DNA of 64,000 nt from Terebella lapidaria (taxonomy: Eukaryota > Annelida > Polychaeta > Terebellida > Terebellidae), in contig OX424559.1 in the NCBI GenBank assembly GCA_949152475.1, forward strand, positions 38,175,119 to 38,239,118, given 5' to 3'. Within the stretch, counting starts at the first letter, position 1; every line of letters starts with the position of its first letter. The translations under genes were made by a program, and so were the position numbers. Positions 10,403 to 53,980 of the stretch are shown here, one piece after another. The notes under the pieces are model-generated. The model saw only the letters and a program-made list of their open reading frames with translations, searched no databases and was not told where the DNA came from.

Positions 10403-10459
10403 ATGTCCTATTTATGATTGAATCGCGAGTGGCTTGCCTCCTTGCATATGGCGCAGACG

Positions 10460-11389: not shown

Positions 11390-11416
11390 TGTTGTATTTG
11401 CGTTTTTCGTAATTGC

Positions 11417-11596
11417 TAAAAAGCGTTTGAATAAAGCGGGTACATGTACAACACTGAAATTGAGACGACAGACAGGTGCATGCAATATATACTGGTATTG
11501 AGTAATATGAGAGTACAAGCTTAAACCTCGGCAGGTCTGCATGAGTGAAAACGACGAAAACCCATTTAAACCATATTAAACATTTTAATATACACT
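11417..11596 (-). repeat. Split direct repeat A1
   Basis: The 5' end of the Ngaro-like element on the minus strand, a 180-bp match to A2. The gag-like frame begins just inside it. Confidence 0.85.
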
Positions 11597-34970: not shown

Positions 34971-35249
34971 TTAAACAATAAGCTTATGTCGTCAAGATAT
35001 TAATTACAGCTGCTTGTGTATTAGAGATAATCACATATTTCCCTCATGTCAGAAGGAGAAGAGGCTTATGCGTAATATACATCGAGGGATGCTTCATACA
35101 TTGGAGGTTCCCTTTGAAGTGTCGGTAAATGACATGGGTAGTCTTCAGCATGTCTTCAGGATGTTTTGTACTTATATTCTCACCATGTCGACATGCACTG
35201 GGTTTATAGTGAATGCCCTGCGTTAATAGAGGTATAAAATGTAATAAAA

Positions 35250-36320
35250 TGTTACATTGTTGTTGTATTCATGATCCCGGTGATTTCATGATCATTATAA
35301 AGATATGGTAAAGATGCCTAAAAAGGGTCACCGGCGGCCGGAACATCACTGAAAACCACTGATGATGGTACCCGGGGCAAATATGACTCAGTTATGAAGG
35401 TACTCGACTGTTGTTTCTATCAAGCTCGCATTTGACACAACAAGATGACGACTGGCGATTCAGTTGGTTAAGCCATGATCTTTTTGCTGAAATACACGGT
35501 TAACTTCGAAATGTATGCTTTCTATTACTTTTATTATTGAATGAGCAAAAATGATACCAATCTTACATGGGAATATCAGTATACAAAGGAACTCGGAATG
35601 ATCGTCTAAGCAGGACTCGTCTATTTCGGATTGTCTATTCAGAATTCATCTATCTCGGATTACAACAGTTGGGCTGTAAACAAAAGATCGTGGTTTCCTG
35701 GAGTTCAGAGACGCGGCGACAGCAAAAGTATTTCACTAGGGAAGTCATAGAACGGTAATGAGTCATTGTCAAAACTAAGTTTTTTCTTTGGGCATATTAG
35801 TGTACATCAGTATACAGGGAATTATGTTCAGTGGTATTGACAGAACGTTTGCACCAGTGAAAAGCGTCGATCACTTACGACGAAACTTCTGTATTGCTGA
35901 GCGACCACGCCCAGGCTTTTTGCAGATTGGTGTCAATAAATGCATGCCTTTTAGGACCACCCCTTCAGACCATTTACGAAAGAAAATGAAAAATCTGTTG
36001 CTACGTAAATATCCTTGATATTCTGTGGTCGTTATCATATTCCAACTTAAGGTGATGTTTCAGGGTGTAGTTTACCAAATATTTGGTGTCTCTATCCCAT
36101 GAATAAGCCGTATGTCACAAAATCTTCACAGTTAAAATCGGACCTGATGCATTTTTGGAAGCTGCGAAAATTGCTGTTTACGACTTTTACATGCCACCCT
36201 GTCGACTTTTACAAGCCTTCCAGACCATTTACGACCCCCTATATTACACCCCGTGAAGTACTGGGTCAGGCAAGCACTAGGGCAAAAGACTTACTGTCTT
36301 AGCAATGTGCAGTAGTTGCA
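35250..36320. other. Unrelated DNA interrupting the array
   Basis: No gene or terminal repeat recognised. It separates two partial copies of the 1.3-kb unit, so it is an insertion or the residue of one. Confidence 0.4.
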
Positions 36321-36493
36321 TCCAGACAACTTCACAATAATAATGGTGTCAGTCATCGTGGAATACATGAATAGTATCACACACACATATACCTGGAAGA
36401 TTGATGCCACCTGTAGGAATTGACACAAAACAGCCATAGTAGTCATGATAATTCATAATGGTTACATGCAGAACACATGGAGTTGGGCATACC

Positions 36494-36618
36494 GACCCAA
36501 GTATCATACACTGCGCCTCATTCTATATTCAATAAGGATTAAAAAGGTGACAGACGGATTAAATGGCATTCATTTAGTGGACGAGTAGTATTAAGGCGCA
36601 GTGTATGATACTTGGGCC
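36494..36618. mobile_element. hAT-like MITE, copy 1
   Basis: 125 bp with ~23-bp inverted ends: CCCAAGTATCATACACTGCG on the left and its reverse complement on the right. It is flanked by the 8-bp duplication GGCATACC (36486-36493 and 36619-36626). Other 1.3-kb units show the unoccupied site ('gacatacattatacac'). The 8-bp duplication is typical of hAT elements. Confidence 0.8.
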
Positions 36619-36899
36619 GGCATACCTTATACACATATAAGCAAAACACAAAATATATACAGACATGAAGTGTCAAAACATTACAATGGCATATCAAGTT
36701 ATTAAGATCAACCATATAAGTAACAGCGTAGAATATATTATCGTGTATATTTGCGGGGAGCTGATGTGAAGGTAATAACAGCACAAGAACTGAATGATTA
36801 ATATGGCATGTATACTTTATGTCAGTGAGTTTTAGTGGGCAAAGAAGGGGTGGTGGATGGTATATTGCGCGAGGAGTTATGTAATTTGTAGCAAAACTT

Positions 36900-37015
36900 G
36901 GCCCAAGTACCGTACACTGCTCCTTAATACTACTCGTCCACTGAAAACATACCATTTAATCCGTCTCGCACCTTTTTAATCCTTATTGAAAGGCGCAGGA
37001 TATGATACTTGGGCC
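36900..37015. mobile_element. hAT-like MITE, copy 2 (opposite orientation)
   Basis: 116 bp, GGCCCAAGTACCGTACACTG to GATACTTGGGCC, flanked by the 8-bp duplication CAAAACTT (36892-36899 and 37016-37023). Internally it is the reverse complement of copy 1 ('ccatttaatccgtctcgcacc'). Confidence 0.8.
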
Positions 37016-37126
37016 CAAAACTTTTTGACCTCAACACACTGATATTGGGTTTGAAGTGTTGTTGATATGAAGAATTTAAGCCTTCTGACGTATTGCGTCA
37101 TTCGAGACTTTGAGTGTGATTTGGGG

Positions 37127-37247
37127 AGTAAGGTGCGGTATTCGACTTTCACCATGGTGATCTAACCCCCCTCATTGGCTAGATAGGCCCCTAGCACCAA
37201 CTCAAAAATACCATAGCTCACTAATGTGCTTATACCGCACCTTAAAC
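37127..37247. mobile_element. Mutator-like MITE with 9-bp duplication
   Basis: 121 bp with inverted ends TAAGGTGCGGTAT and ATACCGCACCTTA, flanked by a perfect GATTTGGGG at 37118-37126 and 37248-37256. A 9-bp duplication is typical of Mutator-like elements. A related unoccupied sequence is visible at about 58009 ('gtgatttggggtaaaaag'), before 'cagacactttgg'-type sequence shared by both places. Confidence 0.75.
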
Positions 37248-38522
37248 GATTTGGGGAACCTATTTTGTATTGGTTTGGCAGACACTTTGGGACACCTATT
37301 TATGATGGGCGTTCAACATTGGTCAACAATATGAGTGAATTGTTGTTGTCATTTTGGGTGAATGTTTTGTGCTAATGCACACTTTGGATCACTTATTTGT
37401 AATCTTGAGTGGACACTTTCAGTCAGTTGTTTGTGTACACAAATACAGTGACACCATTACTATGGTGGGGATGGCTACTACAACTTCTTCTAAGTGAACA
37501 TATTGCTCAGAGAACAAGCCTCTGGGACGCTAGTGACTGACTCAGTGCTTGCTACTGATCAAAATCAAGCCCCAACCCGGCAAATTTGTTGGCGAATGCC
37601 AATCATTGTGTATTTTCTCGTTCCAGCCATGCTTTGCATATTAGTCATTAACAGGTGAGCGTCCTGTGGATAAATTAGGGATCATGTACCAGCACCATTC
37701 ACATGCTTTTCATCTTGCCTATGAACGAGATACTTCGTTTGCATATGCCACCCTTTTCTGCTCTAATTTAAACAAAACCTAAGCCGATGAACTGCCGTCA
37801 ATGTATTATTTACAGCTGCTTGTGTACTAGAGAAAATTATATATTTCCCTCACGTCAAAAGGGGAAGGATTTGACTTAACGTTGAACATTGATTGAGGGA
37901 TGCCTCACACATTGGATAATCCCTTTGTGGAGTGGTGGCACATGACATGAGTAATTCCCAGGACACCCACACGTGTATGTTTTAGAGTTATTTCTTCACC
38001 ATGTCAACTTGCACTGGATTAATAATGACTAATAAGCTCTGGATTGATAGAGGTAGCAAACGTATTGAAAACCTTGTTATTCTATTCGTATGCGTACTTG
38101 AATCACTCTAATTAATGTTTAAAAATAAATTCAAAGTTAGAGTAACTGTCATGGGGTGTGTATACATTAGCCCAAAGCCTAACTATCAATTATGTTGTCA
38201 TTAGAGCCAGATTGAATCACACCACTACCCGGTACTCCCCAACAACGTTGCTAGGCTGCGGCTTGATGCATATCAATGGCAAGCACTGAGGCAGGCAAGC
38301 GCTCAGACGTGGTAGTGCATACCATCATCATGATGATGGTGTCACTGATGGATCACTCATCATGCAAAACATGAATGGTGGCGCCACTTACAACACATCA
38401 CACACACATATATACCTGGTAGAGTGCTGCCGCCTGTAGTAATTGACACAAAACAATAATAGTAATGATAATTCATAATATACACATGCAGAACACATGG
38501 AGATTGACATACATTATACACA

Positions 38523-39225
38523 CTTAGTTCACGGTTCTATTGTTCTGTGCAGTAGATTATTTTTCAGAATCTACTGGAAGACTGTTCCCAGTAGATTATT
38601 GCAGTAGGTTATTGTATCCAATAATCTACTGCAATATAATATACTGCATGTAAAAACAACAACTGCCAGTGTACAAACTGCACCTGCTCAAAGAAGACGC
38701 GCTGGTTTGCATACTAACGAGTCGTTTTCATCATTGCCAAAACCTAATTCGTTTGATACCACAGAACCCTGGTCGAGGCCAATACAATGTAGATGAGAAG
38801 GAGAACAATAGTTGTGGTGTTACTGTTGAGTCCCAATTCTAAGTTCACAAAGACAAGGAAAGGTGGCAGCATAAACAATGATCGTGAATGTAAAACCCTA
38901 TTCGTGTTCAAAATTCATTCATGATCTGGGATGGATATAATCATTATCATGCAAATTGTTTACTAGATGTAGACATCTATTAGCAAAATTTGGTAAATAA
39001 CGTGTTGTTGTATATCGTTGAAACTGACGAGAACGGCAAGCGAATATGTAATTGTATTCTTACGATATAATAATGCTGACAAAGTTGGGCATCACAAATT
39101 CAGACAGTGTCGCCCTCTGCTTCTAAACACTGTTCAAGTGTGAGAGTGTAGTTGTACACGCAGATTACTACTCGCAGGTGCATATACCAGCGGAGCTTAA
39201 TTGAGTTAAGGAACCGAGAACTAAG
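38523..39225. mobile_element. 703-bp TIR element in the array
   Basis: The ends CTTAGTTCACGGTTC (left) and GAACCGAGAACTAAG (right) are inverted with one mismatch. It splits a 1.3-kb unit inside 'cattatacacatataaac', with 'tatacaca' on the left and 'tatacata' at 39326 beyond an adjacent hairpin. It contains 'cagtagattatt' repeats near the left end (38550-38640). No coding capacity. Confidence 0.55.
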
Positions 39226-39227
39226 CC

Positions 39228-39325
39228 GGATAAGCGCTTCGGTGTCGCGCCTCTGGTAAATAATCGACTCCGCCTGCGGCGTCCTCGATTATTTTCCAGA
39301 CGCGCTCCACCTCAGGGGCTTATCC
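39228..39325. repeat. 98-bp fold-back hairpin
   Basis: GGATAAGC at the left pairs with GCTTATCC at the right. Further in, GCGCCTCTGGTAAATAATCG pairs with CGATTATTTTCCAGACGCGC with a few mismatches, and CTCCGCCTGCGGCGTCC is the loop. It abuts the TIR element at 38523-39225 and may be a separate fold-back MITE. Confidence 0.65.
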
Positions 39326-39375
39326 TATACATAAACAAAACAGCGTCAAAACATTACAATGGCATATCAAGTTAT

Positions 39376-39500
39376 GGCCCAAGTACCGTACACTGCTCCT
39401 TAATACTACTCGTTCACTGAAAACATACCATTTAATCCGTCTCGCACCTTTTTAATCCTTATTGAATATAGAGGACGGCGCAGGATATGATACTTCGGCC
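39376..39500. mobile_element. hAT-like MITE, copy 3
   Basis: 125 bp, same orientation and sequence as copy 2. The flanking 8-mers CAAGTTAT (39368-39375) and CAAGTGAT (39501-39508) match at 7 of 8. Confidence 0.7.
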
Positions 39501-39680
39501 CAAGTGATTAAAGCTGTAAGTATGCTATATAAAGAGATACTGTACAATCCCTTCGATCTTTTGAGACATCCCCTGACCCTTTCGTACTGACTGGTGACGT
39601 AAGTAGGTGCCTTTGGCCTAGGCCGACCAGGGGGATTTTCGGCCGTATAAAAGGAGGGGGCGACTGGCCTACAATGTGGC

Positions 39681-39969
39681 GGGGGGCGGGATGGTGCAGT
39701 GGCAGAGCGCTCGGCCCATGATCTAAAGGTCGTGGGTTCGAGTCCGCTCAGCGCCACTTGTGCCTGAAAACCTCCCACGCCAGTGCAGCCCGACTGGCGG
39801 TAAAAACAAAGGCCGGGTGGTGTCAGAGACTGTCTATGGTGTCTGGCACCTAAAAGATCCCTTGGGATTTATCGTAAAGAGTAGGGGATTTCCCCGATCA
39901 CGGGTTTCTGTCTAGGGGGCATATCATCGAGTTATGGCGCCCCCTTACCCCAAGTACAAGTACCAAGTA
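39681..39969 (+). mobile_element. tRNA-derived SINE
   Basis: 289 bp with a tRNA-like head: A-box region GGATGGTGCAGTGGCAGAGC and B box GGGTTCGAGTCC, an internal RNA polymerase III promoter. A conserved-looking body follows ('cctaaaagatcccttggg', 'gagtaggggatttccccg'), then an AAGTACAAGTACCAAGTA tail. It is flanked by a perfect 13-bp duplication, CCTACAATGTGGC (39668-39680 and 39970-39982). It depends on a partner LINE; none of the LINEs here has an obviously matching tail. Confidence 0.88.
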
Positions 39970-39982
39970 CCTACAATGTGGC

Positions 39983-40789
39983 ATACTCAATAGACCAAGG
40001 AGGCATACACATCGTCCTCAATGTCCGTATGTAATGCATTTCATTGTGTATATCTATATTTCAGTGTTTATAGCATATTGGTTGAATGTAGGGTGTGACA
40101 ATATGGGTGACATCTCTGACGGAATATTTTGTAATCATATAACATTGATAGCGTCACCCTTGATAGTCTGTCCAATTGTACATGTACATGCTATGTTACA
40201 GGTATGCACCTATTGGCATGTACTCTAGGTTAGTAATATAGCATACAATGACTGAGCACTGCTCAACAACATATGAGTACAAAATTTACCAGGTCACAAA
40301 GCCTGTTTGTATGTTGTGTACAAATATGTATGATAACTTTACTGTTGATGTGGCTACATTACGGGGATATATCTATGCACGTGAATTACTGGGAACCATA
40401 CAAATTCGTCACACCAATGGATAATACGTTCATTACGGCTAGGAGGGAAATATGTAGCCCTAATTATATGAGTAATTGTGTGCACGTATGGATATTATGC
40501 AATTATACTTTGCAGTTTGTGTGTTCTCTGACATCTGTGCTGTGGGGAACATGTCAAATGATCATCGACACACACTGCAAGAATGGCTTTATACCACTTC
40601 GCCGTTACTGCCGACTGCCTCTGGCCTCTGTCGTGGGCGGCCTGACTCGCGCCAGTGCATAGACCCGCCCACATTCGAAGCAAAACAAACAACGCGTGGT
40701 TCTGTGGTTTTACGTTCGGTTTATCCGTCGGGGAAGATCGTGGTCGTTATCATAATATTTTTTTTACATGGTCGTTTATCTATTTATAA
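39983..40789. other. Unrelated DNA within the array
   Basis: No recognised gene. Two overlapping frames at 40273-40820 have no family features. Together with 39500-39680 this is the insertion into which the SINE landed. Confidence 0.4.
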
Positions 40790-41029
40790 CATACTTACAG
40801 CTTTAACATCCAAAATATAAGTAACAGTTTAGAATATATTATCGTGTATATTGTGTGGGGAGTTTATGTGGTGTGAAGGTAATAACACCACAATAACTGA
40901 ATGGAGTGTGTGGGATGTAGACTTCATGTCAGTGAATTTGAGTGGGGAAAGGAGAAGTTTTGTGATTTTGTAGTAAACATTTTTGTACTTGGTTTTGAAA
41001 TGTAGTTTTAGAAATAACTTGTTTGACTA

Positions 41030-42296
41030 ATAGTTGTATCAATCAAGGTTTTTGTTCACAATATCCCAAAGTGTGAATCGTGACTTTTATGATACATCCA
41101 TGCTAAAATGTCATCAGGTCATCAGGTCATTCCATCAGCACAATTGAGGCGTGTGAGCATCCTGTGGATTTATTGGAGATCATGTACTGGCACCACATCA
41201 TTTGCATATGCCACCATTTTTCTGCTCTAATTTAAACAAAATATAAGGTGATGAAATGCCGTCAGGGTATTATTTACAGCTGCTTGTGAACTAGAGAAAA
41301 TTTACCCCAGGTCAAAAGGAGAAGGATTTGAAAAGGCTAACCTGTAATATAGATTGAATGATGTCTCACACATTCAGTAATCCCTTTGGAATTTTGTTAC
41401 ATCACATAGGTAATCCCCAGGACGCCCGTACTTGTATGTTTTAGAGTTATTTTTTCACCATGTCAACATGCACTGGATTGATAGTGACTAATAAGCTCTG
41501 GATGGATGGAGGTATCAAACGTATTGAAAACCTTGTTATTCTATTCGTATGCATACTTGAATCACTCTAATTAATGTTTAAAAATAAATTCAAATTTAGA
41601 GTAGATGTCATGGGGTGTGTGTACATTAGCCCAATGCCTAACTATCAATTATGTTGCCTTTAGAGCCAGATTGAACCACTCCATTATCCAGTACTCCCCA
41701 ACAACATTGCTAGGCTGTGGCTTGATACATATCATTGGCAAGCACTGAGTCAGGCAAGCGCAGTCACACAAGGATTGCTGACTGAACAATGTGTTCGCTC
41801 AGAAGTGGTAGTGCATACCATCATCATCATAATGGTGTCACTGGATGGATCACTCATCATGTAAGATATGAATGGTGGCGCCACTTACAACACATCACAC
41901 ACACATATATACCTGATAGAGTGCTGCCGCCTGTAGGAATTGACACAAAACAATAAAAGTAATGATAATTCATAATGTACACATGCAGAACATATGGAGA
42001 TGAACATACATTATACACATATAAACAAAACAGCGTCAAAACATTACAATGGCATATCAACTTATTAACATCCACAATATAAGTTACAGTGTAGAATATA
42101 TTATCGTGTATATTGTGTGGGGAGTTTATGTGGTGTGAAGGTAATAACACCACAATAACTGAATGGACTGTGTGGGATGTAGACTTCATGTCAGTGAATT
42201 TGAGTGGAGAAAGGAGACGTGATGGATGATAATTGCACGAGGAGTTTTGTGATTTTATAATAAACATTTTTTACTGGGTTTTGAAGTGTAGTTTTA
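41030..42296. repeat. 1.3-kb unit copy, nearly complete
   Basis: Starts at 'ctaatagttgtatcaatcaagg' and carries all landmarks through 'ttgtgattttataataaac'. Its right end is fused to the middle of the next copy, which lacks its first ~280 bp. Confidence 0.7.
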
Positions 42297-43349
42297 GGGT
42301 ATTATTAGCAGCTGCTTGTGAACTAGAGAATATATATTTTCCCCCAGGTCAAAACGAGAAGGATTTGAAAAGGCTAACCTGTAATATAGATTGAATGATG
42401 TCTCACACATTGAATAATCCGTTTGGATTTGTGGTACATCACATAGGTAATCCCCAGGACGCCCGTACTTGTATGTTTCAGAGTTAGTTTTTCACCATGT
42501 CAACATGCACTGGATTGATAGTGACTAATAAGCTCTGGATGGATGGAGGTATCAAACGTATTGAAAACCTTGTTATTCTAATCGTATGCGTACTTGAATC
42601 ACTCTAATTAATGTTTAAAAATAAATTCAAATTTAGAGTAGATGTCATGGGGTGTGTGTACATTAGCCCAATGCCTAACTATCAATTATGTTGCTTTTAG
42701 AGCCAGATTGAATCACTCCATTACCCGGTACTCCCCAACAACATTGCTAGGCTGCGCCTTGATGCATATCAATGGCAAGCAATGAGTCAGGCAAGCGCCG
42801 TCACACAAGGCTTGATGTCTGAACAATGTGTTCACTCAGAGGTGGTAGTGCATACCATCATCATCATAATGGTGTCACTGGATGGATCACTCATCATGCA
42901 ATACATAAATAGGGGCGCCATTTACAACACATCACACACATATATACCTGGCAGAGTGCTGCCGCCTGTAGGAATTGACACAAAACAATAATAATCAATG
43001 CAGAACACATAGAGATGGACATATGTTATACACATATAAACAAAACAGCGTCAAAACATCACAATGGCATATCAAGTTATTAACATCCACAATATAAGTA
43101 ACAGTGTAGTATATATTATCGTGTATATTGAGTGGGGAGTTTATGTGGTGTGAAGGTAATAACACCACAATAACTGAATGGAGTGTGTGGGATGTAGACT
43201 TCATGTCAGTGAATTTGAGTGGGGAAAGGAGAAGTGATGGATGATAATCGCGCGAGGAGTTTTGTGATTTTGTAGTAAACATATTTTTACTGGGTTTTGA
43301 AGTGTAGTTTTAGAAAAATAGTACACATAGTCTTAGAAATAACTAGAAC
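42297..43349. repeat. 1.3-kb unit copy, left end missing
   Basis: Joins directly at 'ggtattattagcagctgcttg', so the first ~280 bp were lost at the junction. The rest is over 90% like the copy before it by eye. Confidence 0.7.
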
Positions 43350-44690
43350 TAATAGTTGTACCAATCAAGGTTTTTGTTCACAATATCACAGAGTGCGAAT
43401 CATGATTTTTTTAATAGTGCAATGCTAAAATGTCACTGCGGGTCACCAGGTCATTCCATCAGCACAATTGAGGCGTGTGAGCATCCTGTGGATTTATTGG
43501 AGATCATGTATCAGCACCACATCATTTGCATATGCCACCATGTTTCTGCTCTAATTTGAACAAAATATGTTGTGATGAAATGCCGTTAGGGTATTATTTA
43601 CAGCTGCTTGTGAACTAAAGAATATTATCTATTTCCCCCAGGTCAAAACGAGAAGGATTTGAAAAGGCTAACCTGTAATATAGATTGAATGATGTCTCAC
43701 ACATTGAATAATCCCTTTGAATTGTGGTACATGACATAGGTAACATCCCCAGGACGCCCGTACGTGTATGTATTAGAGTTATTTTTTCACCATGTCAACA
43801 TGCACTGGATTAATAGTGACAAATAAGCTCTGGATGGATGGAGGTATCAAACGTATTAAAAACAATGGTATTCTATTCGTATGTGTACTTTGGTTACTCT
43901 AATAAATGTTTCGAAATCAATTCAAAGTTAGAGTAGCTGTCATGGGTATGTATAAATTAGCCCAAGGCCTAACCAGCGAATATGTTCCCATCGGGGCCAG
44001 ATTGAATAACACCAATACCTGGTACTCTCAAATAACATTGCTAGGCTGCGGCTTGATGCATATCAATGGCAAGCACTGAGTCAGGCAAGCGCCGTCACAC
44101 AAGGATTGCTGTCTGAACAATGTGTTCGCTCAGAAGTGGTAGTGCATACCATCATCATAATAATGGTGTCAAGGTAATATATACCTGGCAGAGTGCTGCG
44201 CCCGTGGGAATTGACACAAAACAATAATAGTAATGATCATTCATAATGTACACATGCAGAACACATGGAGATGGACATACATTATACACATAAAAACAAA
44301 ACACAAAATATATACAAACTAGAAGCGTCAAAACATTACAATGGCATATAAGTTATTAACATCAACCATATTAGTAACAGTGTAGAATATATTATCGTGT
44401 ATATTGTGTGGGGAGTTTATGTGGTGTGAAGGTAATAACACCACATTAACTGATTGATGAGTGTGGCATGAAGACTTTATGTTAGTGAGTTTGAGTGGGG
44501 GAAATAAAGGATAATGGATGATATATCGCGCGAGGAGTTTTGTGATTTTGTATTAAACAATTTTGACTTCAACATAAGTTGATTGTCAATTTCAGAAACC
44601 TATTTGATGTTCGTGAAGATCTGAAACAGCCAGTCATATTTATTTTATACAAAGTTAAATAATACAAGTAGCTTCAGAAACAAATAAAAC
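43350..44690. repeat. 1.3-kb unit copy, complete period
   Basis: The one copy bounded on both sides by the same landmark ('caatcaaggtttttgttcacaatatc' type), giving a period of about 1340 bp. It has a small deletion near 44176, where the 'acaacacatcacacacac' segment is missing. Confidence 0.7.
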
Positions 44691-45179
44691 TGATGGTTGT
44701 ACCGATTAAGATTTTTGTTCACATCATCAGAAAGTGTGAATCGTGATTTTCATAATAGGTCTATGCTTAAATGTCACTGCAGGTTATCAATGCATTCCGT
44801 CAATACAGCTACAAGTATGTGGGCGTTTGGGTTGGGGGAGGCGTTCAACCCTCTATATGCCTATGTATGGGCTTTTAAAGGAGGTTTCGTGCCAAGCTAT
44901 CCATGCATAGTGTGATATCAAAATTGTATTACTATCATCATTATTGGCATGTTTAGAGATAAACGTTTGTTATATGGGAGATAAAACACGTATACCTCTT
45001 TTGACGCAGTCTTAAAATAGCCTGTAGTTTGTTCTAAGCTCGGTGGTATTACATCTATTTTAAAGTCATTTGTGAGATTTCACCACTCGGCTAGGAAACA
45101 CTGATCATATGTGAGGATCAGAATTAACATTGTTTTAGCATGAAGCATGTCGGATTTCAACTTCAACCTTATAAATTTA

Positions 45180-45198
45180 AAAAAAAAAAAAAAAAAAA
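45180..45198. repeat. A18 tract
   Basis: A homopolymer directly before a fragment of the 1.3-kb unit ('actgactcagtgcttgctgctg'). It may mark the tail of a decayed retro-insertion occupying about 44830-45180, but no matching duplication was found. Confidence 0.4.
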
Positions 45199-45291
45199 CT
45201 GACTCAGTGCTTGCTGCTGATCAGAATCAAGATCCAACCTGGCAAATTTGTTGGAGAATGCCAATCATTGTGTAATGTCTCTAGCTCGAGC

Positions 45292-46125
45292 GGCCCAAGA
45301 ATCACACACTGCGCCTTCCTATATTTTCAATAAGGATTAAAAAGGCGACAGACGGATTAACCTTTTCACTACTCATGGTTACGCTGCGTAACCATACCAC
45401 ACCCCTCCTGCTGTAATGATGGTTACGCTGCGTAACCATAACTTTGGCAACCAACAGATGTATAGGTAACTGACCACTGATTGTATTTAATGTTATATAT
45501 ACCCGAGAATGTACCTACACGCTAAACTAGCACATACATATTGCCACCGATTGAAATTTAGAAGCTGAACTGACTGTTTAGTTAATTGAATTATGAACCT
45601 GTCATTAACCTTGTGACGTCACAAGTACTGAATACAATGGGACGGACTCCAGACAATTTTCACTAAAACTTTAATATCTCCATAACTGATCAAGATATTG
45701 ACATGCTGTAAACGCTATCAAAACCCACGATATTCACTTCATCACACATATAGAAGACTACAAGTACTCAAGTAAAACGTATTGGATTATATTTCATTAC
45801 AAATTCTAATATGGCTGTATGATAAAGAAAATGGAAATAACCATCTGTTTGGTCCCGATATTTTTTTCTTGTCTCCACAGTAACCGATGAAACTGGGTTG
45901 AAAAGTATACTGATTAGAAAGAGCACACTATAATATGACTTTATTTTGACACATAATTATTATAAAACATCTTAATAAAAAAATAATCAAACATATAGAA
46001 ATCCTATCAATTCATACATGAATCGGCTCAGTATGGAGGTTGAGGGGTGGTCAGTAGCGAAAAGGTTAAATGGCATTCATTCAGTGGACGAGCAGGATTA
46101 AGGCGCAGTGTATGATACTTGGGCC
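45292..46125. mobile_element. hAT-like MITE, copy 4, split by a TTAA element
   Basis: Outer ends GGCCCAAG and CTTGGGCC, with flanking 8-mers GCTCGAGC and GCTCCAGC (7 of 8). The orientation is that of copy 1. At its internal 'gacggattaaatggcattcat' it is interrupted by the 705-bp element at 45361-46065; copy 1 shows the uninterrupted site. Confidence 0.8.
45361..46065. mobile_element. piggyBac-like non-autonomous element (TTAA target)
   Basis: 705 bp with inverted ends CCTTTTCACTACT and AGTAGCGAAAAGG, bordered by TTAA at 45357-45360 and 46066-46069. TTAA duplication with CC-starting ends fits piggyBac; Kolobok also uses TTAA. Two near-palindromic copies of ATGGTTACGCTGCGTAACCA lie near the left end (45376 and 45418). 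There is no transposase frame. The empty site is visible in MITE copy 1 at about 36557. Confidence 0.85.
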
Positions 46126-47040
46126 GCTCCAGCCATGCCTTGCTTATTAATTATTAATAGGTGAGCGTCCTGTGGATTTAATTGGGGATCATGTACCGGC
46201 ACCACTCACATGCTGTTCATCTTGGTTATGAACGAGAGACTTGTTTGCATATGCCACCATTTTCTGGACTAATTTAAACAAAAGATAAGATGATGAAATG
46301 CTGTCAAGGTATTAATTACAGCTGCTTCTGTACTAGAAAAAAATATATATTTCCCTCACGTCGAAGAGTCCAATGTGTAATAATTGATTGAGTGATGCCT
46401 CGTACATTGGATAATCCTTTTGGAGTGCAGGTACATGACATAGGTAATCCTCAGGACGCTCATGTGTTTTTTACTTATGTTTTCACCATGTCAACAGGCA
46501 CTGGAATAATAAGCTCTGGAAAGATGGAGGTATTGAAAACATTGTTATTCTATCCGTAAGCGTACTTTGGTCACTCTGATAAATAATTCAAAATCAGTTC
46601 ATAGTTAGAGTAGCTGTCATGGGTGTGTGTAGAGAAGCCCAAGGCCTAACTATCAATTATGTTGCCATTTGAGTCATTTTGAATTATACCAATACCTGGT
46701 ACTCTCCAACAATATTACTAGGCTGCGGCTTGATGCATATCATTGGCAAGCACACAAGGCTTGCTCTGTGAGCAATGTGTTCACTCAGAAGCGTCATTCA
46801 GACTTCCTCACTATAAAAATGGTGTCATTGGCTGGATCAATCATCATGCAATACAAGAGTAGTGGCGCCACTTACACAATATGCCACACATATATGCCTG
46901 GCAGAGTGGTACCACCTGTATGAATTGACACAAAACAATTTTTAGTAATGATAATTCATAATGTCCACAGGCAATACACACTGAGATGGATATATAACAT
47001 ACACACATATACAGATGCAAAGTGTCACATCATTACAATG

Positions 47041-47700
47041 ATCAAGTTATTAACATTGATAGTTCTTCTGCCCACAAGCAATTTTTTAGGTTTGAGTACC
47101 AAAAAAGTGGGCAAGTTCCAACTATGTTTTTTCTATCAGTCCAATATATTGCCAATTTGATAAAAAAAATGATGGACGTCTGTTTTGCCCAGCTAAACCC
47201 GTGTGGTGGCCATTTTCCAAGATCGCCGCCATCAAATTTGTGATCGCTTGAAAAAACAAAAATACTCGTATTTTTCCTCCTAATTATGATATGGTTGTGA
47301 TCTTGGCGTCTAAATGTATGTTTGAGAAGTCAAGGGAGTCCATAAAAATACTTTTAACGCTATAAACTCATTTAATAACAATGAAATCCAAGATGGCGAC
47401 CATCAAAATCACAAATTTCTCGGCGTATTCGGAAAATACTTAATATTTCTGTTCGTAATTAGTCATGCTACTATCTTCAAGTATTATATATATTGTCTTG
47501 AGTTTATTTAGAATAATAAACATTTGCATCAACACGATGTATGGCGCTCCATACTTGTGAGAGGGACAAACTTTTTGAATTAAAGTTGTCTAAGGAAATC
47601 TTGTTTTCTAAAGTGAGTGACTTCAATGCTATTGAACTTTATGTGACAACAGTAAGTGTGTGACAAGTCAAAACCCCTAAACACACTATTTATATGGTGC
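47041..47700. other. Non-coding DNA before LINE 2
   Basis: Contains 'ccaagatggcgacc'/'aagatcgccgccat'-type sequence in both orientations (47205-47240 and 47385-47410), suggesting a dispersed repeat. No gene recognised. Confidence 0.4.
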
Positions 47701-47913
47701 AAACGTAGCAAAAACTGATCAAACTAACTATGTGCCCCATTTATCGCTCACCATCACCAAGGTAAACAAATCGTTTCCCTGGTCATAACGTTGGTTCTGA
47801 CATCGTTTAGGACCAAGGAGCTACGCTCGGTGGACTCAAAATCATAACGTCACCGTGTATGTATTCATTTCCATTCAGCATAACGCTCTCACATCATCCT
47901 CATAACGTTCAGT

Positions 47914-49425
47914 ATGGACAAGCAATTGGAGAATACTGCCTTGTGGGTGTGCATTAAAGCCCAAGGCATGCCTTTCCTGCTAGAAATTGAAATGGCCTCT
48001 AAAATTGTCAACCGAGTCAACGCCGGTGATTCCCAGATTGAACTGTCCGATATTCTCTCAGCACAGAAACTGACAACCCACATTCCAATATGGATTATTT
48101 ACTGTGGCTCCGACAGCGTCAAGCAGAAAATCTTGGCCATCCGATACCTAACGGTTGAGGGCAGACGTTTCTATCTCAACGACTTCCTGAAAGAAAAAGT
48201 CCGTGGAGTGGCTTCAGAAAAAGTGCGTAGGGTCTCGATTCACGGATTCCCCTTCAGTGTTTCTGACACGGAAATCGAGCAGTGGGTGAACACCTGGGCA
48301 GTGAGGTCAAGTAATGTAATGAAGGCCAAGGCGAAAGCTTCTGCTTCTCCAGGTTGCAAGCATGACTCTTTGCTGAACGGCAACAGGTTTTGCTATGTTT
48401 GTGATGTAAATGACCCTGTGCCCCGCTACAGCAGCTACTCTATTCCGTCTCCAAATGATAGCTCCATCATTCTAGACATCCAGATCACAGTCTATTACGA
48501 GGGTCAATTGGTGAACTGTAAGAGGTGTCTGGCAACTGATCATGAGATCAGTGACTGCAACAGGCGAGGAGTTCGCAATGACAACCTTGTGGTTTTCCGT
48601 GGGCATCAGAATCCTCTATCCAACTTTTACCCCTGCGCTCTCACGGCGGACGCTATCACATATCCGTCGGCGGAACATATGTATCAACATCGCAAGGCTC
48701 TACACTGTGTCGACTCAGGAGTTGCCCAACAGATACTGGACACGGAATCAGCGCTGGACGCCATGAGACTTGGTAAGTCTGTCTCATCAGATGACTGGTC
48801 CGACGTCCGTCTCTCGGTGATGACGGAAGTGCTGAACTTCAAGTACCTCCAGTGTGCAGCTTTCCGGGATGCGTTGTCCAGCAGCGGAGATAAGGAGCTC
48901 GTAGAGGCAACTTCTCACCCTTTCTGGGCGTCAGGACTCCCCCCGGGGGCTACAGTGGCGCGTCGTTCTGAGGACTGGCCCGGTGAGAACCAGCTAGGCC
49001 GCTTGCTTATGAACATCCGTACCGACAAATCAGCCAGCGGGCCTGCCGACCAGGCTTCTGCTCCCCTAGCATCCCAGGCGCAGATCCTCCCTAGCAACCA
49101 CGAATGTGGCGCCCGCTTGGCTGACGCGTTGATATCCAAGGTCCTGGCCGAGGATCCACAGTCCTGCACGTCCCCTGAGCTGCTTCACAAGGCTGATGCA
49201 TTCATCGAGGGTGCTAAGGAGGATAAGCGACGGGAAAACGTGAACAAGTCGTGCAAACCAACGGCTTCAAAATCTTCGTCAGCTAAAGCAGGCAAGCGCA
49301 AACCGTCCAGTCCGGTGAATGTGGATGAGACTCCCGAGAGTAGGAAGCCGGAAAAAACCCTCAGATCTTTCTTCCATCTGAAGGAGCGTTTCTCTGGCCG
49401 TGCACCCTCCGAGTCTCCCACATGA
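47914..49425 (+). CDS. LINE 2 ORF1: RRM-like and zinc-knuckle protein fused to a NADAR domain
   Basis: 503 residues from an ATG. Residues ~105-195 are RRM-like (VRRVSIHGFPFSVSDTEIEQ, SSIILDIQITVYYEG). Residues 202-215 are a C-x2-C-x4-H-x4-C knuckle (CKRCLATDHEISDC). Together these are a normal LINE ORF1 nucleic-acid-binding set. Residues ~227-370 are a NADAR (YbiA/DUF1768) domain: VFRGHQNPLSNFYPC, YPSAEHMYQHRKAL, DDWSDVRLSVMTEVLNFKY, SSSGDKELVEATSHPFW, and WPGENQLGRLLMNIR. Known NADAR enzymes cleave N-glycosidic bonds, including ADP-ribosyl-guanine in DNA and riboflavin intermediates. The C-terminal ~130 residues are Ala/Ser/Lys-rich and basic, ending in a KTLRSFFHLKERF segment. The frame is uninterrupted. 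ORF2 follows in the same frame after a single TGA. Confidence 0.9.
   Translation: MDKQLENTALWVCIKAQGMPFLLEIEMASKIVNRVNAGDSQIELSDILSAQKLTTHIPIWIIYCGSDSVKQKILAIRYLTVEGRRFYLNDFLKEKVRGVASEKVRRVSIHGFPFSVSDTEIEQWVNTWAVRSSNVMKAKAKASASPGCKHDSLLNGNRFCYVCDVNDPVPRYSSYSIPSPNDSSIILDIQITVYYEGQLVNCKRCLATDHEISDCNRRGVRNDNLVVFRGHQNPLSNFYPCALTADAITYPSAEHMYQHRKALHCVDSGVAQQILDTESALDAMRLGKSVSSDDWSDVRLSVMTEVLNFKYLQCAAFRDALSSSGDKELVEATSHPFWASGLPPGATVARRSEDWPGENQLGRLLMNIRTDKSASGPADQASAPLASQAQILPSNHECGARLADALISKVLAEDPQSCTSPELLHKADAFIEGAKEDKRRENVNKSCKPTASKSSSAKAGKRKPSSPVNVDETPESRKPEKTLRSFFHLKERFSGRAPSESPT
48583..49023 (+). other. NADAR domain within LINE 2 ORF1
   Basis: Codons 224-370. It retains the LSNFYP box, the Glu of the AEHMYQ..KA helix, the W..R...M helix, the LVE segment, an FW..GL turn and the G.NQLGRLLM.IR end that define the family. 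Sequence conservation is high enough to expect a folded domain and possibly an active one. Confidence 0.88.
49423..49425 (+). promoter_or_regulatory. In-frame UGA joining ORF1 and ORF2 (candidate read-through)
   Basis: The ORF1 TGA is followed in the same frame by 33 open codons (49426-49524) to the first ORF2 ATG at 49525, with no other stop. Read-through would make an ORF1-ORF2 polyprotein that the 2A motif could separate. The context TGA-TTA is not the strong TGA-CTA type. A 12-codon out-of-frame ORF (ATG 49472, stop 49505-49507) ends 17 nt before ATG 49525, which would also allow reinitiation. Confidence 0.5.
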
Positions 49426-49524
49426 TTAGGACCCACTCCTAGTGCATTACTCCTGACGAACCGGTCTGTCCATGGATATTTCTTTTGTTTTACGCTATTT
49501 GTATTGACGTCTGGTTATGGTTGG

Positions 49525-52500
49525 ATGATTCCGCCAAGTTTTATGTTGTATGAAGTAAGCAGTAATCTAATTCCTGAAAATACGCATCACTTATTATGTA
49601 TTGAAATCCTCGTTGATATTATTTGTATGAGACACTTATTGTTTTGCTCAAGTGCTGTTACAGGTTTTGAGTTTTGGTACATAATTTTATTGCGTGCTGG
49701 GGACATAGAGTCTAACCCTGGCCCTATTGGTGGTAGTGTCGGTTATAGTGATATTTCTATGTGTCACATCAATGTTCAGAGTTTACGCAATAACAAAGAA
49801 AAATTTGAGCATGTAAAGCTGCAACTGAGCGGTAATTTCGAAATAATCACTGTCTCTGAAACCTGGCTCGACTCTACATTTCCGAGCCATGATTTCGATT
49901 TGCCGAACTATTATCCAATATTTCGTCGTGATCGAAATTGCAATTCGATCGGTGGCGGGGTTGCGGCCTGGGTTTCATCCCGCCTCGCTGTAAAGCGGCG
50001 GCGTGACCTGGAGTTTGATAGTATCGAAGCTATGTGGCTGGAGGTACGGTGTCATAATAATAAATTTTTAGTATGCACCGTCTATAGGCCACCGAGCGGA
50101 ACCGTCGATTTTTGGGATAAAATCCAATCCTCGATGGATACTGCTCGCGAAATGGGCAACATAAATATCGTGATACTTGGTGATTTCAATGCCGATGACA
50201 ACACCAATCACGGCAGACACTTCAATTTCTTCGTGGAGGTCAATAATCTTACGTCACATATAAATGAGCCCACACGTATAACAGCATCGTCTCAAACAAA
50301 GTTAGATAGGATAGTTACCAACTGTCCCCACTTTGTTAAAAACAGTGGAGTTCTGGACCCGCTTCTCTTCAATGATCATTGCACGGTATCGATATCGTTG
50401 TTGTTTAGATACAGAAGTGCTCGTCCTTATAAACGGACAATGTGGTACTATGACAAGGCTGATATTAATGGCTTGAAAGAATATTTGCAACGAATCGATT
50501 GGGATTCGGAGTGTAATAACTTTGTTGATGTTGACATTGCCACTGATAAATGGACATCTATTATTCTCACCGCTGCCAAGCAATTCATTCCTAATAAACA
50601 TGTAACTGTTCGTCCGAATGATAAGCCTTGGTATAGAGGTGAACATAGGCGCCTGAAACGTGAACGCGAACAAGCGCATCGGGCTGCAAAAAAGGGCAAT
50701 ACCCCGGAAAAGTGGGCTGCTTTTCGGCAAGCCAGAAATATATATATCCAGGCATGCAGAAATGCAAAACAGATCTTTGATAATGATCGACTGCTTGATA
50801 TTTCTACTTGTTCTTTCCAGCGTAAGGAATGCTGGAATATATACAAATCTTTCTTTAAAATGAACCAACACTCATCGCAAATCCCAACATTAGTCATTGG
50901 TGACAACATATTGGTAAATGAGGTTGAAAAATGCAACTACTTCAACGATTTGTTCCTAGCGAATTCCAAGCTAGATGATACTGGAGCCACGCTCCCAATT
51001 TTGCCAGCAAATGACGCATTTTGTGACATACATCTAAGCGCACAAGATGTCTCAGATCAGCTGGGTAATCTAAATCCATCAAAGGCTTACGGTCCGGATG
51101 GGGTCGGTCCACGTTTACTAAAAATAATGAAAACCGTCATAACGGACCCACTGCTTAAACTATTTACTGCTAGTCTCCAGCAGGGCGGGTTTCCCAAGTC
51201 TTGGAAAAGAGCTAATGTAATCCCCATATACAAGAAAGGGGACGCCAGTAACCCCACCAATTATCGGCCCGTCTCCCTTTTAAACACGTCCAGTAAAATT
51301 TTTGAGAAGATAATTTTCAAATATCTCTTCAACTACTTCCGAGATAACTTCATATTGACTGTCTGGCAGTCGGGTTTTTTACCGGGCTGTTCTACAACTA
51401 GCCAGTTAATTGAACTTTATCATAAGTTCTGTTCGGCTGTTGATGACGGCAAAGAAGTACGGGTTGTTTTCTTGGACATAAGTAAAGCTTTTGAGCGGGT
51501 CTGGCACGCTGGGCTTCTGTTCAAGCTTCATAAAACAGGCATAGGTGGCAACCTATTGAAATGGTTGGCTAGCTACCTGAATGAAAGAAGTCAACGCGTC
51601 TGTATACATGGCCAGTTCTCGGAATGGGGTAATATTCAGTCGGGAGTTCCTCAGGGATCTGTTCTAGGACCTCTGTTATTTTTAATCTTCATTAATGACA
51701 TTATCGAAGTGGTCAAATTCACCAGTATTCGTCTTTATGCAGACGACACATGCTTGTTTTTGACAGTTGACAACCGACAGATCGCAGCTGATTGCATCAA
51801 TCAAGATCTGCATGCGATTCAAAGTTGGGCTGATCAATGGCTTGTAACATTCAGTCCGAGCAAAACAGAAGCAATGACTATTTCCAACAAACGTGATCTG
51901 CATTTGCAGCCTCCATTGCTGATCGGTAATGTTACAGTGAACGAGGTTGCCACCCATAAACATCTGGGTTTAATCTTCAGTTCTAATCTGTGGTGGCTCC
52001 CGCACATCGACAGTATCTATACAAAAGCCATGAAACGCCTTGACATAATTAATGCTTTCAAGTTCAAACTTGACAGATCAGCACTTGAAAGATTTTATTT
52101 ATCTTTTGTCAGACCTATCTTGGAATATGCTGATGTGGTCTGGGCCGGAGCTCACGATTGCGACCTACTGAAACTAGATAAGGTGCAAACTCGTGCATTA
52201 AGAATAGTCACGGGGGCTACCGAGCGATCCAATGTAAATAATCTTTACTTGGATACCGGGTGGGCTACACTGGCTGACAGAAGAGAGATGCATAAACTTT
52301 GTCACTTATACCAAATAGAAAATTATATGGCGCCTTCGTATCTAATTGATATCATGCCGCCCTCGGTTGAGGAACGCACGAATTATCAACTAAGAACGCG
52401 TCATAATGTATCTCAGTTCCTAACTCGAGTGGAATCGCTAAGAAGGTCCTTCTTTCCTTCCACTACTGTGGCATGGAACTCACTGCCCATTGAAGTCAGG

Positions 52501-52917
52501 AGCTTACCGACTTTGGGAACATTCAAGAATTGTTTAAAGGCTAGAATTTGTAAAACCAAAAGACCATGGTTTATGATTGGCGACCGATTCGCGAATATTC
52601 ATCATGCTAAAATGCGCATCGGTTGCAGCTTTTTGAATGCTCATTTGTGTCACAATCTGCATGTCATTGAAAAGCCAAATTGTAATTGTGGGTGGCCTTA
52701 TGAGAATCCTAAACATTATCTGTTAGAGTGTGCCCAATACCGAGTCATTAGATCTAGTTTGTTCCATAAGTTAAATGATTTCATTCCGTTAAATGTTGAA
52801 TTATTACTCTTCGGAGATGAAAATTTATCAATATCTGATAATATTATAATATCACTAGCAGTACAGGATTACATCAAAGATTCCCGTCGCTTTGTTCACT
52901 CAGACGAGAAATGGTAA
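49525..52917 (+). CDS. LINE 2 ORF2: 2A leader, APE endonuclease, reverse transcriptase
   Basis: Start placed at the first in-frame ATG (49525), though the frame is open back to the ORF1 stop. A hydrophobic leader ends in the canonical 2A motif LLRAGDIESNPGP. The APE endonuclease follows: SMCHINVQSLRNN, VSETWLDS, FRRDRNCNSIGGGVA, ILGDFNADD, and NDHCTV in place of SDH. RT boxes are SKAYGPDGVGPRLL, DISKAFERVWHAG, SGVPQGSVLGPLLFL and LYADDTCLF (about 51736). The C-terminal knuckle is CNCGWPYENPKHYLLEC, with an LSISDNIIISLAVQDY end that aligns with the LINE at 13251-16138. About 1130 residues, all boxes intact. It nicks DNA and primes cDNA synthesis at the target. Confidence 0.92.
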   Translation: MIPPSFMLYEVSSNLIPENTHHLLCIEILVDIICMRHLLFCSSAVTGFEFWYIILLRAGDIESNPGPIGGSVGYSDISMCHINVQSLRNNKEKFEHVKLQLSGNFEIITVSETWLDSTFPSHDFDLPNYYPIFRRDRNCNSIGGGVAAWVSSRLAVKRRRDLEFDSIEAMWLEVRCHNNKFLVCTVYRPPSGTVDFWDKIQSSMDTAREMGNINIVILGDFNADDNTNHGRHFNFFVEVNNLTSHINEPTRITASSQTKLDRIVTNCPHFVKNSGVLDPLLFNDHCTVSISLLFRYRSARPYKRTMWYYDKADINGLKEYLQRIDWDSECNNFVDVDIATDKWTSIILTAAKQFIPNKHVTVRPNDKPWYRGEHRRLKREREQAHRAAKKGNTPEKWAAFRQARNIYIQACRNAKQIFDNDRLLDISTCSFQRKECWNIYKSFFKMNQHSSQIPTLVIGDNILVNEVEKCNYFNDLFLANSKLDDTGATLPILPANDAFCDIHLSAQDVSDQLGNLNPSKAYGPDGVGPRLLKIMKTVITDPLLKLFTASLQQGGFPKSWKRANVIPIYKKGDASNPTNYRPVSLLNTSSKIFEKIIFKYLFNYFRDNFILTVWQSGFLPGCSTTSQLIELYHKFCSAVDDGKEVRVVFLDISKAFERVWHAGLLFKLHKTGIGGNLLKWLASYLNERSQRVCIHGQFSEWGNIQSGVPQGSVLGPLLFLIFINDIIEVVKFTSIRLYADDTCLFLTVDNRQIAADCINQDLHAIQSWADQWLVTFSPSKTEAMTISNKRDLHLQPPLLIGNVTVNEVATHKHLGLIFSSNLWWLPHIDSIYTKAMKRLDIINAFKFKLDRSALERFYLSFVRPILEYADVVWAGAHDCDLLKLDKVQTRALRIVTGATERSNVNNLYLDTGWATLADRREMHKLCHLYQIENYMAPSYLIDIMPPSVEERTNYQLRTRHNVSQFLTRVESLRRSFFPSTTVAWNSLPIEVRSLPTLGTFKNCLKARICKTKRPWFMIGDRFANIHHAKMRIGCSFLNAHLCHNLHVIEKPNCNCGWPYENPKHYLLECAQYRVIRSSLFHKLNDFIPLNVELLLFGDENLSISDNIIISLAVQDYIKDSRRFVHSDEKW
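49690..49725 (+). other. 2A peptide in LINE 2 ORF2
   Basis: Encodes LLRAGDIESNPGP, a full match to D(V/I)ExNPGP; the final Pro codon is 49723-49725. It separates a ~65-residue leader from the endonuclease-RT protein. Such motifs are documented in CR1-like LINEs of several marine invertebrates. Confidence 0.88.
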
Positions 52918-53272
52918 CACTAACTTACTAGATGTGTATCAATGATTGTCCTTCTTTTTGTCCTGTGTATCTTGCGTATGGTCTATCTATTTCCGTGTAT
53001 ATATCCGTGGTGTAAATACAGAACATGGTTCTGGAATCTTATCGGTTGCCATTTGCTATTTGTGTGTAAATACGTTGTTTTGTTACTTTTGTTTCGGTGG
53101 CCGTCGGTGGAGGGCTGTATCAGCAGTGTTTTTTTGTTGTTGTTCATTTGTATATAATAGTTTGTTTATTTTACATATACTTTGCACACTTTTGTCCCTC
53201 TCACTGGAAAGACCTTTGTATAGGCATGTCCTGTTGGTTAATCCTAATAAATATCGTTTATAAAAAAATAAA

Positions 53273-53980
53273 AAAAAATCACTATCACATGAAACACTTT
53301 TGTCCGGCTGAAGGTCGACTTCTTCATCAATCATATTTTAGCATGTCAGTAACTTGCAGGTTTCTGTGCATTTGAGCCCATTCACAATACAGTACAAAGT
53401 ACATTCCGTTGGCCGGCAAGTACACCTCGTTGGCCAGCAAGATGGAGCGCCGTGCGTTGCGTCAGCGCATCACGCCAACTTTCAAATTTTACGTACAAGT
53501 CTAGCACATGACAGACATATTAGTTTGGCTAGATTCCATGCATGGAGTTTATATTACCAGTAAAACGGCTGTCTGCACCAGCAAAGACGCACGTTACTTC
53601 GTCTTTGCCCAGTGCACAAGAGTGCACCGAGAACTTTGACAACATCATTCGATTAACAGGGTGGAGAGATTCTCCATGTGACCAGATCTAAAAAAACCTT
53701 TTGCCATATTGTTTTTTCTTCGGAAAGTTTTTTTCGGAAAGAACCAGCCAGCCAGGAGAAAAAAATCAAACACAGAAAAAAACACAGACGTTTATTATCA
53801 CGATATTATATTAATCCACAAAGTAAGGTAAAGTTCGACGACCGCGTGATAAAGAGGTATACCCCATTACTGGAGTGTTAACGAATTGTCTCATTAACCT
53901 GCCTGTACGTTCATATTGCAACTGTGGTGTCACTGCTTGTTGTGTTTTGGTTCATAAAGCAATCGGTATTCTCTAAATGA
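53273..53980. other. No gene recognised
   Basis: Some GC-richer sequence near 53400-53470 with 'gttggccggcaag' and 'gttggccagcaag' in tandem; otherwise nothing assignable. Confidence 0.4.

Follow-up and report, generated by a model that had tools for sequence, protein, structure and literature searches.

NADAR domains have been described in the ORF1 of oyster (Crassostrea gigas) Tx1 LINEs and in the Gypsy Pol of Ectocarpus (PMC12477816, 2025), so the NADAR-LINE ORF1 fusion is already known in outline. In the excerpts of PMC12477816 consulted, the oyster LINEs take up one sentence and a line of general discussion. Among the open-access papers surveyed, this was the sole one found to join NADAR and a LINE ORF1, and no report of the spread, of a second backbone or of the exchange of such an ORF1 was found. 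The DarT1-NADAR antitoxin and the YbiA hydrolases (PMC11543638, PMC11125620) share with the NADAR described here the catalytic Glu, the Lys and the YbiA-type Glu, whereas here no toxin partner is seen and the domain is fused to a retrotransposon ORF1. The physiological role of animal NADARs has been described as unclear (PMC11125620). Passage of whole ORF1s between LINE lineages likewise has a parallel: Metcalfe and Casane (2014, PMC4120745) describe the shuffling of ORF1 between L2 and CR1 elements, and they proposed a 5'-truncation route for the exchange in LINEs other than the present ones. As excerpted, their cases lie within the Jockey superfamily and concern PHD or esterase ORF1s, whereas here a NADAR ORF1 stands before both L1-group and non-L1 ORF2s.

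The locus analyzed here lies in a stretch of 64,000 nucleotides of the Terebella lapidaria genome, referred to as the window. It resembles the oyster LINEs in having a YbiA-type NADAR in a LINE ORF1, and it extends what the excerpts of PMC12477816 report to 2A-bearing non-L1 LINEs and to a second backbone, with evidence on the active site, constraint and copy number.

The NADAR element and its ORF1

The whole LINE (∼5.7 kb) occupies positions 47543..53278 of the plus strand, as delimited by comparing the shared 5' start with the differing flanks of its copies. Its 5' end is GGCGCTCCATACTTG or a few bases off, and its 3' end is an A-rich tail (53262..53278), read from the sequence and compared with L040 and L041. 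In the genome searched (761.6 Mb, 438 contigs), three further full-length ORF1 copies are L010, L011 and L012, which show 99.2% nucleotide identity to the window copy across the ∼3.4 kb compared, on either side of the middle of ORF2. The 5' starts of all four copies agree to a few bases and their flanks are unrelated. On the 3' side, the match runs to the A-tail in L011 and L012 and departs earlier in L010 (L039); the ORF1 of L012 has one stop codon. An exact-match search of the flanks for target-site duplications returned A-rich runs and one unlinked 9-mer only, and inspection of three copies by eye gave none that was convincing. With an endonuclease and a reverse transcriptase in ORF2, an A-rich 3' end and dispersed copies with sharp 5' ends, the NADAR element of the window is a recently mobile LINE. 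A diverged repeat array (34987-47057), with a unit spacing of ∼1 to 1.3 kb as well as longer, stops shortly before the element; an empty site was looked for within this array and none was found.

ORF1 (47914..49425, plus strand) translates free of stops into 503 residues, as the initial annotation had read it, and full-length copies exist elsewhere in the genome. Its N-terminal region (residues 1-200, 47914..48513) appears by eye, from the alignment, to hold two RRM-like folds. The RRM-like part of the initial annotation thus stands as a visual reading and gained no profile match: no RRM profile was listed at E ≤ 1 in 10 family members, under HMMER filters that drop most matches above 0.1, and a search of residues 1-223 against solved chains at E ≤ 1 returned one unrelated chain only (E = 0.74). 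The CCHC zinc knuckle, also predicted earlier, can be read directly in the sequence at 48517..48558 (C202-x2-C205-x4-H210-x4-C215). Its four residues C202, C205, H210 and C215 are kept in 28, 28, 27 and 28 of 28 rows. With the threshold at E ≤ 1, the Pfam zf-CCHC profile matches three of the 10 family members, the window ORF1 not among them. Of the two features of a type I ORF1, an RRM upstream and a CCHC knuckle, it is the knuckle pattern that the sequence displays.

The NADAR domain (residues 232-370, 48607..49023), with the putative catalytic residues E254, K261 and E331, is the sole Pfam family found in ORF1. PF08719 aligns over positions 10-160 of its 163 (E = 3.4e-28; 99.4 bits, the curated cut-off being 35.1), which bears out the near-complete domain that had been annotated, and the solved NADARs 8bau (1.2e-8) and 2b3w (4e-8) match by sequence. 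The remainder of ORF1 is a variable C-terminal tail (residues 372-503, 49027..49422). Downstream, the ORF2 frame (49426..52917, plus strand, 1163 aa) contains an apurinic-type endonuclease domain (49771..50367, PF03372, E = 8e-7) and a reverse transcriptase domain (51232..51891, PF00078, E = 1.9e-31). The earlier identification of a LINE ORF1 fused to a NADAR domain is thereby upheld.

Two further LINEs are present in the window. In a second intact LINE (ORF1 28450-29808, ORF2 30087-33683), ORF1 has a coiled-coil look and a UPF0029/IMPACT domain (29482-29796, E = 8.1e-25), and ORF2 is 34% identical to that of the NADAR element over 1129 aa. UPF0029 has at least 150 matches in the genome, with 150 of 381 candidates scored, and no paper treating it together with a retrotransposon was found in the open-access literature. 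The third LINE is broken (13251-16137, minus strand) and retains an ORF2 piece 49% identical to that of the locus L030.

Active site, constraint and abundance of the NADAR domain

In the E. coli C7 enzyme, E88, K95 and D171 are important, and their counterparts in the P. nicotianae enzyme are E43, K50 and E125 (Schuller et al., PMC11543638). By means of that paper and the alignment with 8bau, the latter three were mapped to E254, K261 and E331 of ORF1, residues whose equivalents matter for the hydrolysis of ADP-ribosyl-guanine (PMC11543638). Conservation was counted in 50 own-genome loci (the window's included) together with the relatives P0002-P0010 found in other sequence sets; some rows are broken or partial, those that do not cover a position were omitted for it, and many are close copies and hence not independent. 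On this basis, ORF1s of the RRM-CCHC type have E254 in 58/58 rows, K261 in 57/58 and E331 in 54/54, the sole exception at K261 being L027 with Asn. In a second, coil-type ORF1 described below, three of the 11 rows (L081, L082 and L083) have another residue in place of K261, so some elements may not hydrolyze; E254 and E331 are present in all covering rows of both types. The Asp that precedes the active-site Trp in 8bau is Pro in the window's NADAR, and the sequence there is one residue shorter.

Selection was examined in pairs of copies. Nine cross-lineage pairs showed saturated synonymous change in both the RNA-binding part and NADAR (pS 0.73-0.93), whereas the pN of NADAR was 0.20-0.38, similar to that of the RNA-binding part, and rose to 0.30-0.56 in the tail. 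Ten within-lineage pairs had too few changes, with dN/dS near or above 1 in some, and constraint is consequently argued across lineages only. The mean pairwise identity among 19 rows was 0.56 for RRMb, 0.49 for NADAR, 0.39 for RRMa and 0.29 for the tail. These values support a NADAR domain that is, judged from substitution patterns, kept under constraint across lineages; the dN/dS comparison called for by the initial annotation was thus informative between lineages and uninformative within them.

The search of the genome with ORF1, in which 85 of 954 candidates were scored, gave at least 93 matching stretches, some copies being counted as two pieces; since so few of the candidates were scored, the family is larger than these 93 stretches. 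For PF08719, at least 150 matches were obtained (150 of 973 candidates scored), and many of those listed have identical scores across several chromosomes, within frames of 400-500 aa. The Macro domain, used as a yardstick, had 71 candidates, every one of which was scored, and 47 matches; by our count, 38 of these matches are near another Macro match. Judged against Macro, the amplification of NADAR in this genome is particular. The fusion is therefore not confined to one copy: further own-genome ORF1s carry the domain, as do 10 of 10 aligned family members. A profile match, recurrence in the family and retained active-site residues were the points on which the initial annotation had staked its claim, and all three were found. 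Viral contigs compared with the family alignment gave 26 pattern matches and 0 relatives, and a protein query with the NADAR domain by itself gave 31 candidates and 5 matches, too few for placing a donor.

ORF2 groups, the 2A motif and a second ORF1 backbone

ORF2s behind RRM-CCHC-NADAR ORF1s were typed by the best downstream match at 50 loci (L009-L038 and L045-L064, the latter hand-picked, mostly as fuller ones, from the remaining ORF1 matches). Type A was assigned to 26 loci, A2 to one (L030), type B to 20 and none to three. A type B ORF2 aligned with human L1 ORF2p at 226.6 bits over 612 residues (3-614 of a 950-residue piece), whereas the window's type A ORF2 and that of L030 matched it in the RT core only (80 and 52 bits). 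By sequence, type B is assigned to the L1 group. We take it to be Tx1-like, and this would be a further likeness to the oyster LINEs. Types A and B share ∼24% identity over 373 residues; the B-type ORF1s are 35-49% identical to the window ORF1.

An unrooted ORF1 tree, built from 19 own loci and seven other proteins (26 rows, the partial P0004 and P0007 being dropped), placed type A on one side of a branch supported at 97/96 and type B at 87/93. P0002, P0003, P0005, P0006, P0008 and P0009 fell on the B side, and P0010 and L030 formed long branches; L023, L026 and L032 had at that point been assigned to B on the basis of kinship, an assignment that downstream typing later confirmed. In the ORF2 tree (11 rows, one of them a very long branch), a single clade of elements with RRM-CCHC-NADAR ORF1 was rejected (p-AU 1.65e-4), as was a single clade of such ORF2s within the 2A group (p-AU 8.5e-5). 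The window's third LINE paired with L030 (99/100), and the UPF0029-bearing LINE joined this pair (90/84).

Since the same ORF1 stands ahead of very different ORF2s, whole ORF1s have probably moved between LINE groups, and exchange is the simplest reading of this pairing. Common ancestry followed by independent loss elsewhere would account for the split between A and B in the unrooted tree, a pattern also expected from ancient vertical descent, but we regard it as highly doubtful: the ORF2s are as unlike as L1-group and non-L1 elements, yet their ORF1s retain the identity given above; the 2A-type ORF2s found behind this ORF1 do not form a single clade; and one of these ORF2s falls together with the UPF0029-bearing LINE.

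A 2A (StopGo)-like motif, LRAGDIESNPGP, which includes GDIESNPGP, was found by motif search near the start of ORF2 (49690..49725, plus strand). Such a motif is present at 24 of 27 A/A2 loci and at 0 of 20 type B loci, in which ORF2 lies in another frame where inspected. From the ORF1 stop (UGA) to NPGP (49426..49713, plus strand), 96 codons are open in the ORF1 frame, whereas none of 300 dinucleotide shuffles of this stretch was open. Framing was compared at loci taken by choice as about one per lineage; L053 among them has no motif, and with L061 added separately the comparison covers 14 loci that have both an intact ORF1 and the motif. At 12 of these 14, no stop interrupts the ORF2 frame between the end of ORF1 and the motif: directly past UGA in the same frame in L009, L014, L015, L017 and L057, and in the +1 frame, overlapping the ORF1 end, in L047, L049, L050, L052, L054, L056 and L030, where the ORF1 stop is UGA, UAG or UAA. 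In L058 and L061 (the latter with ORF1 intact), the frame was not continuous from the ORF1 stop to the motif. Shuffled versions of these stretches were open in at most 4 of 300 per locus. ORF2 of 2A-type elements may be translated by read-on from ORF1, past UGA or via a +1 shift, and the 2A motif would then release the ORF2 protein from the read-on product. In-frame ATGs precede the motif in 13/13 loci, so reinitiation is also possible. Odon et al. reportedly found, in 2013, 2A in ORF2 of APE-type LINEs, which would be a likeness to the present 2A-type elements; in the latter, most of the lineages examined have an ORF2 frame that starts right at the stop of ORF1.

A second build of NADAR ORF1, recognized by eye at the eight loci read, consists of a coiled coil and an L1-ORF1-like region followed by NADAR. 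It was first met upstream of 2A-type ORF2s, where, among eight upstream stretches, L068, L070 and L071 hold a whole or partial NADAR, L067 the end of a NADAR of the RRM-CCHC type, L065 and L066 the ORF1 tail only, and L069 and L072 nothing recognized; for L069, a NADAR match lies 2.9 kb upstream, outside the stretch fetched. The ORF1s are 415 aa long in L071 and L073 and 422 aa in L068 and L075, and ∼1.8-2.1 kb separate NADAR from the endonuclease in L068 and L071. Among the 28 ORF2 matches listed at ≤45% identity, at least 12 have a same-strand NADAR match no more than 4 kb upstream (tables joined by eye). Six loci picked from the listed NADAR matches by their differing frame length (L080-L085; NADAR E 1.8e-49 to 5.6e-34) also show the coil-type ORF1 by eye; of the parts of a type II (L1-type) ORF1, namely coiled coil, RRM and C-terminal domain, Transposase_22 was matched in one of the six when scanned (L084, E = 7e-4, 20.3 bits, below the cut-off of 22.4), and the rest were judged by eye. 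Behind this ORF1 lies a 2A-type ORF2 in L080 and L085, and no ORF2 was seen within the stretch fetched for L082 and L084. In L081 and L083, it is followed by a separate GDSL-like ORF and then the start of an L1/Tx1-like endonuclease, from which these two are read as a three-ORF LINE. The GDSL-like esterase ORF spans 1763-2419 in L081 (PF13472, E = 1.1e-13) and 1786-2460 in L083 (2.1e-15). NADAR and a GDSL esterase occur in a single chain in P0011 and P0020, the former also with a CCHC knuckle, and both may likewise be ORF1s of LINEs.

In a tree of NADAR domains, the coil-type ones from this genome grouped with that of an Enterococcus phage (100/97). Four groupings, chosen after the first tree had been viewed, were tested. 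Two narrower ones were rejected (p-AU 0.0096 and 0.0134), the latter being a clade of the own-genome coil and RRM-CCHC-type NADARs; a clade of all LINE NADARs including P0011 and P0012 was not rejected (p-AU 0.097), and a grouping of the own-genome coil NADARs with P0014 and the phage sequence L008 was compatible (p-AU 0.594). The alignment is short and the branches long (P0020 was omitted for this reason), too short for counting captures. The coil-type NADAR apparently comes from another NADAR lineage than that of the RRM-CCHC type.

Proposed role of the NADAR domain and further fusions

We put at roughly 50% the reading in which a recently active LINE encodes here an ORF1 protein with a probably catalytic NADAR at its C-terminal side, and this NADAR clears ADP-ribose from the element's nucleic acid; the domain may thereby serve, as the initial annotation had proposed, as a counter-defense against host ADP-ribosylation of nucleic acids. 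The ORF1 protein would coat the element RNA and so bring NADAR to it; host ADP-ribosyltransferases would modify the RNA of the element, its cDNA or the nicked target with ADP-ribose or an N-glycosidic adduct like it; and NADAR would strip the adduct, so that reverse transcription could proceed. The conserved catalytic residues together with the zinc knuckle argue for an enzyme acting on the element's nucleic acid, and NADAR ORF1s in related LINEs of the same genome suggest recurrent resistance to a host defense, the activity itself being presumed. The CARP-1 protein of shellfish ADP-ribosylates guanine and has been proposed to act in innate immunity and/or NAD regulation (PMC8053099), and the same logic of an enzyme acting on nucleic acid has been proposed for the NADARs of RNA viruses (PMC9503650). 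A genome search for the Scabin-like guanine ADP-ribosyltransferase family gave no match, and the control was likewise silent, so absence is not established.

NADAR could instead act on RNA ends or on small molecules derived from ADP-ribose or NAD (NAD or ADP-ribose caps, repair intermediates, signaling products), aiding RNA processing or blunting a signal. Low-molecular-weight ADP-ribose derivatives and RNA repair have been proposed for NADAR (PMC9503650), and the authors of the Ectocarpus study suggest RNA processing (PMC12477816), but the zinc knuckle, from which nucleic-acid binding is expected, points to a nucleic-acid substrate, and we consider this somewhat unlikely. That the domain has become a binding or assembly module for which catalysis is irrelevant would suit the coil-type rows without the catalytic Lys (3/11); it is rather improbable given that E254 and E331 persist in both types and K261 in 57 of 58 RRM-CCHC-type rows. 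Hardly credible is a passenger domain, part of a gene that a few copies picked up accidentally: the mention of the fusion in one paper only, PMC12477816, would fit it, but many diverged copies carry NADAR, constraint is evident in the nine cross-lineage pairs, and other sequence sets contain relatives (P0002-P0010).

If NADAR is active in the RNP of the element, LINEs would join the phages and RNA viruses that carry enzymes undoing ADP-ribosylation, one would expect modification of retrotransposon nucleic acids to be a means of restriction in animal cells, and animal NADARs would gain a concrete, testable biology. More tentatively, and at somewhat less than even odds, we envisage an arms race over nucleic-acid ADP-ribosylation in which ORF1 is a modular carrier of counter-defense: NADAR would have joined unrelated backbones at least twice, the finished ORF1 would have passed between L1-group and 2A-type LINEs, and UPF0029/IMPACT would fill the same slot in sister elements, perhaps blunting the stress response. 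ORF1 would then be an effector module exchanged across LINE groups, and the host is predicted to have an enzyme, yet to be discovered, for the ADP-ribosylation of LINE RNA or cDNA.

Other fusions and elements were also observed. P0015 (829 aa) joins a PD-(D/E)XK nuclease to NADAR. On the minus strand of the window, 8148-11542 holds consecutive frames with an RT match, a weak RNase H match below the cut-off and, by eye, a recombinase-like frame; this element resembles the DIRS type. At L035 (457-2856), the ORF1-NADAR frame continues from an upstream open frame for a total of 800 aa and appears, by eye, to be an in-frame insertion into a gag-like gene of another element.
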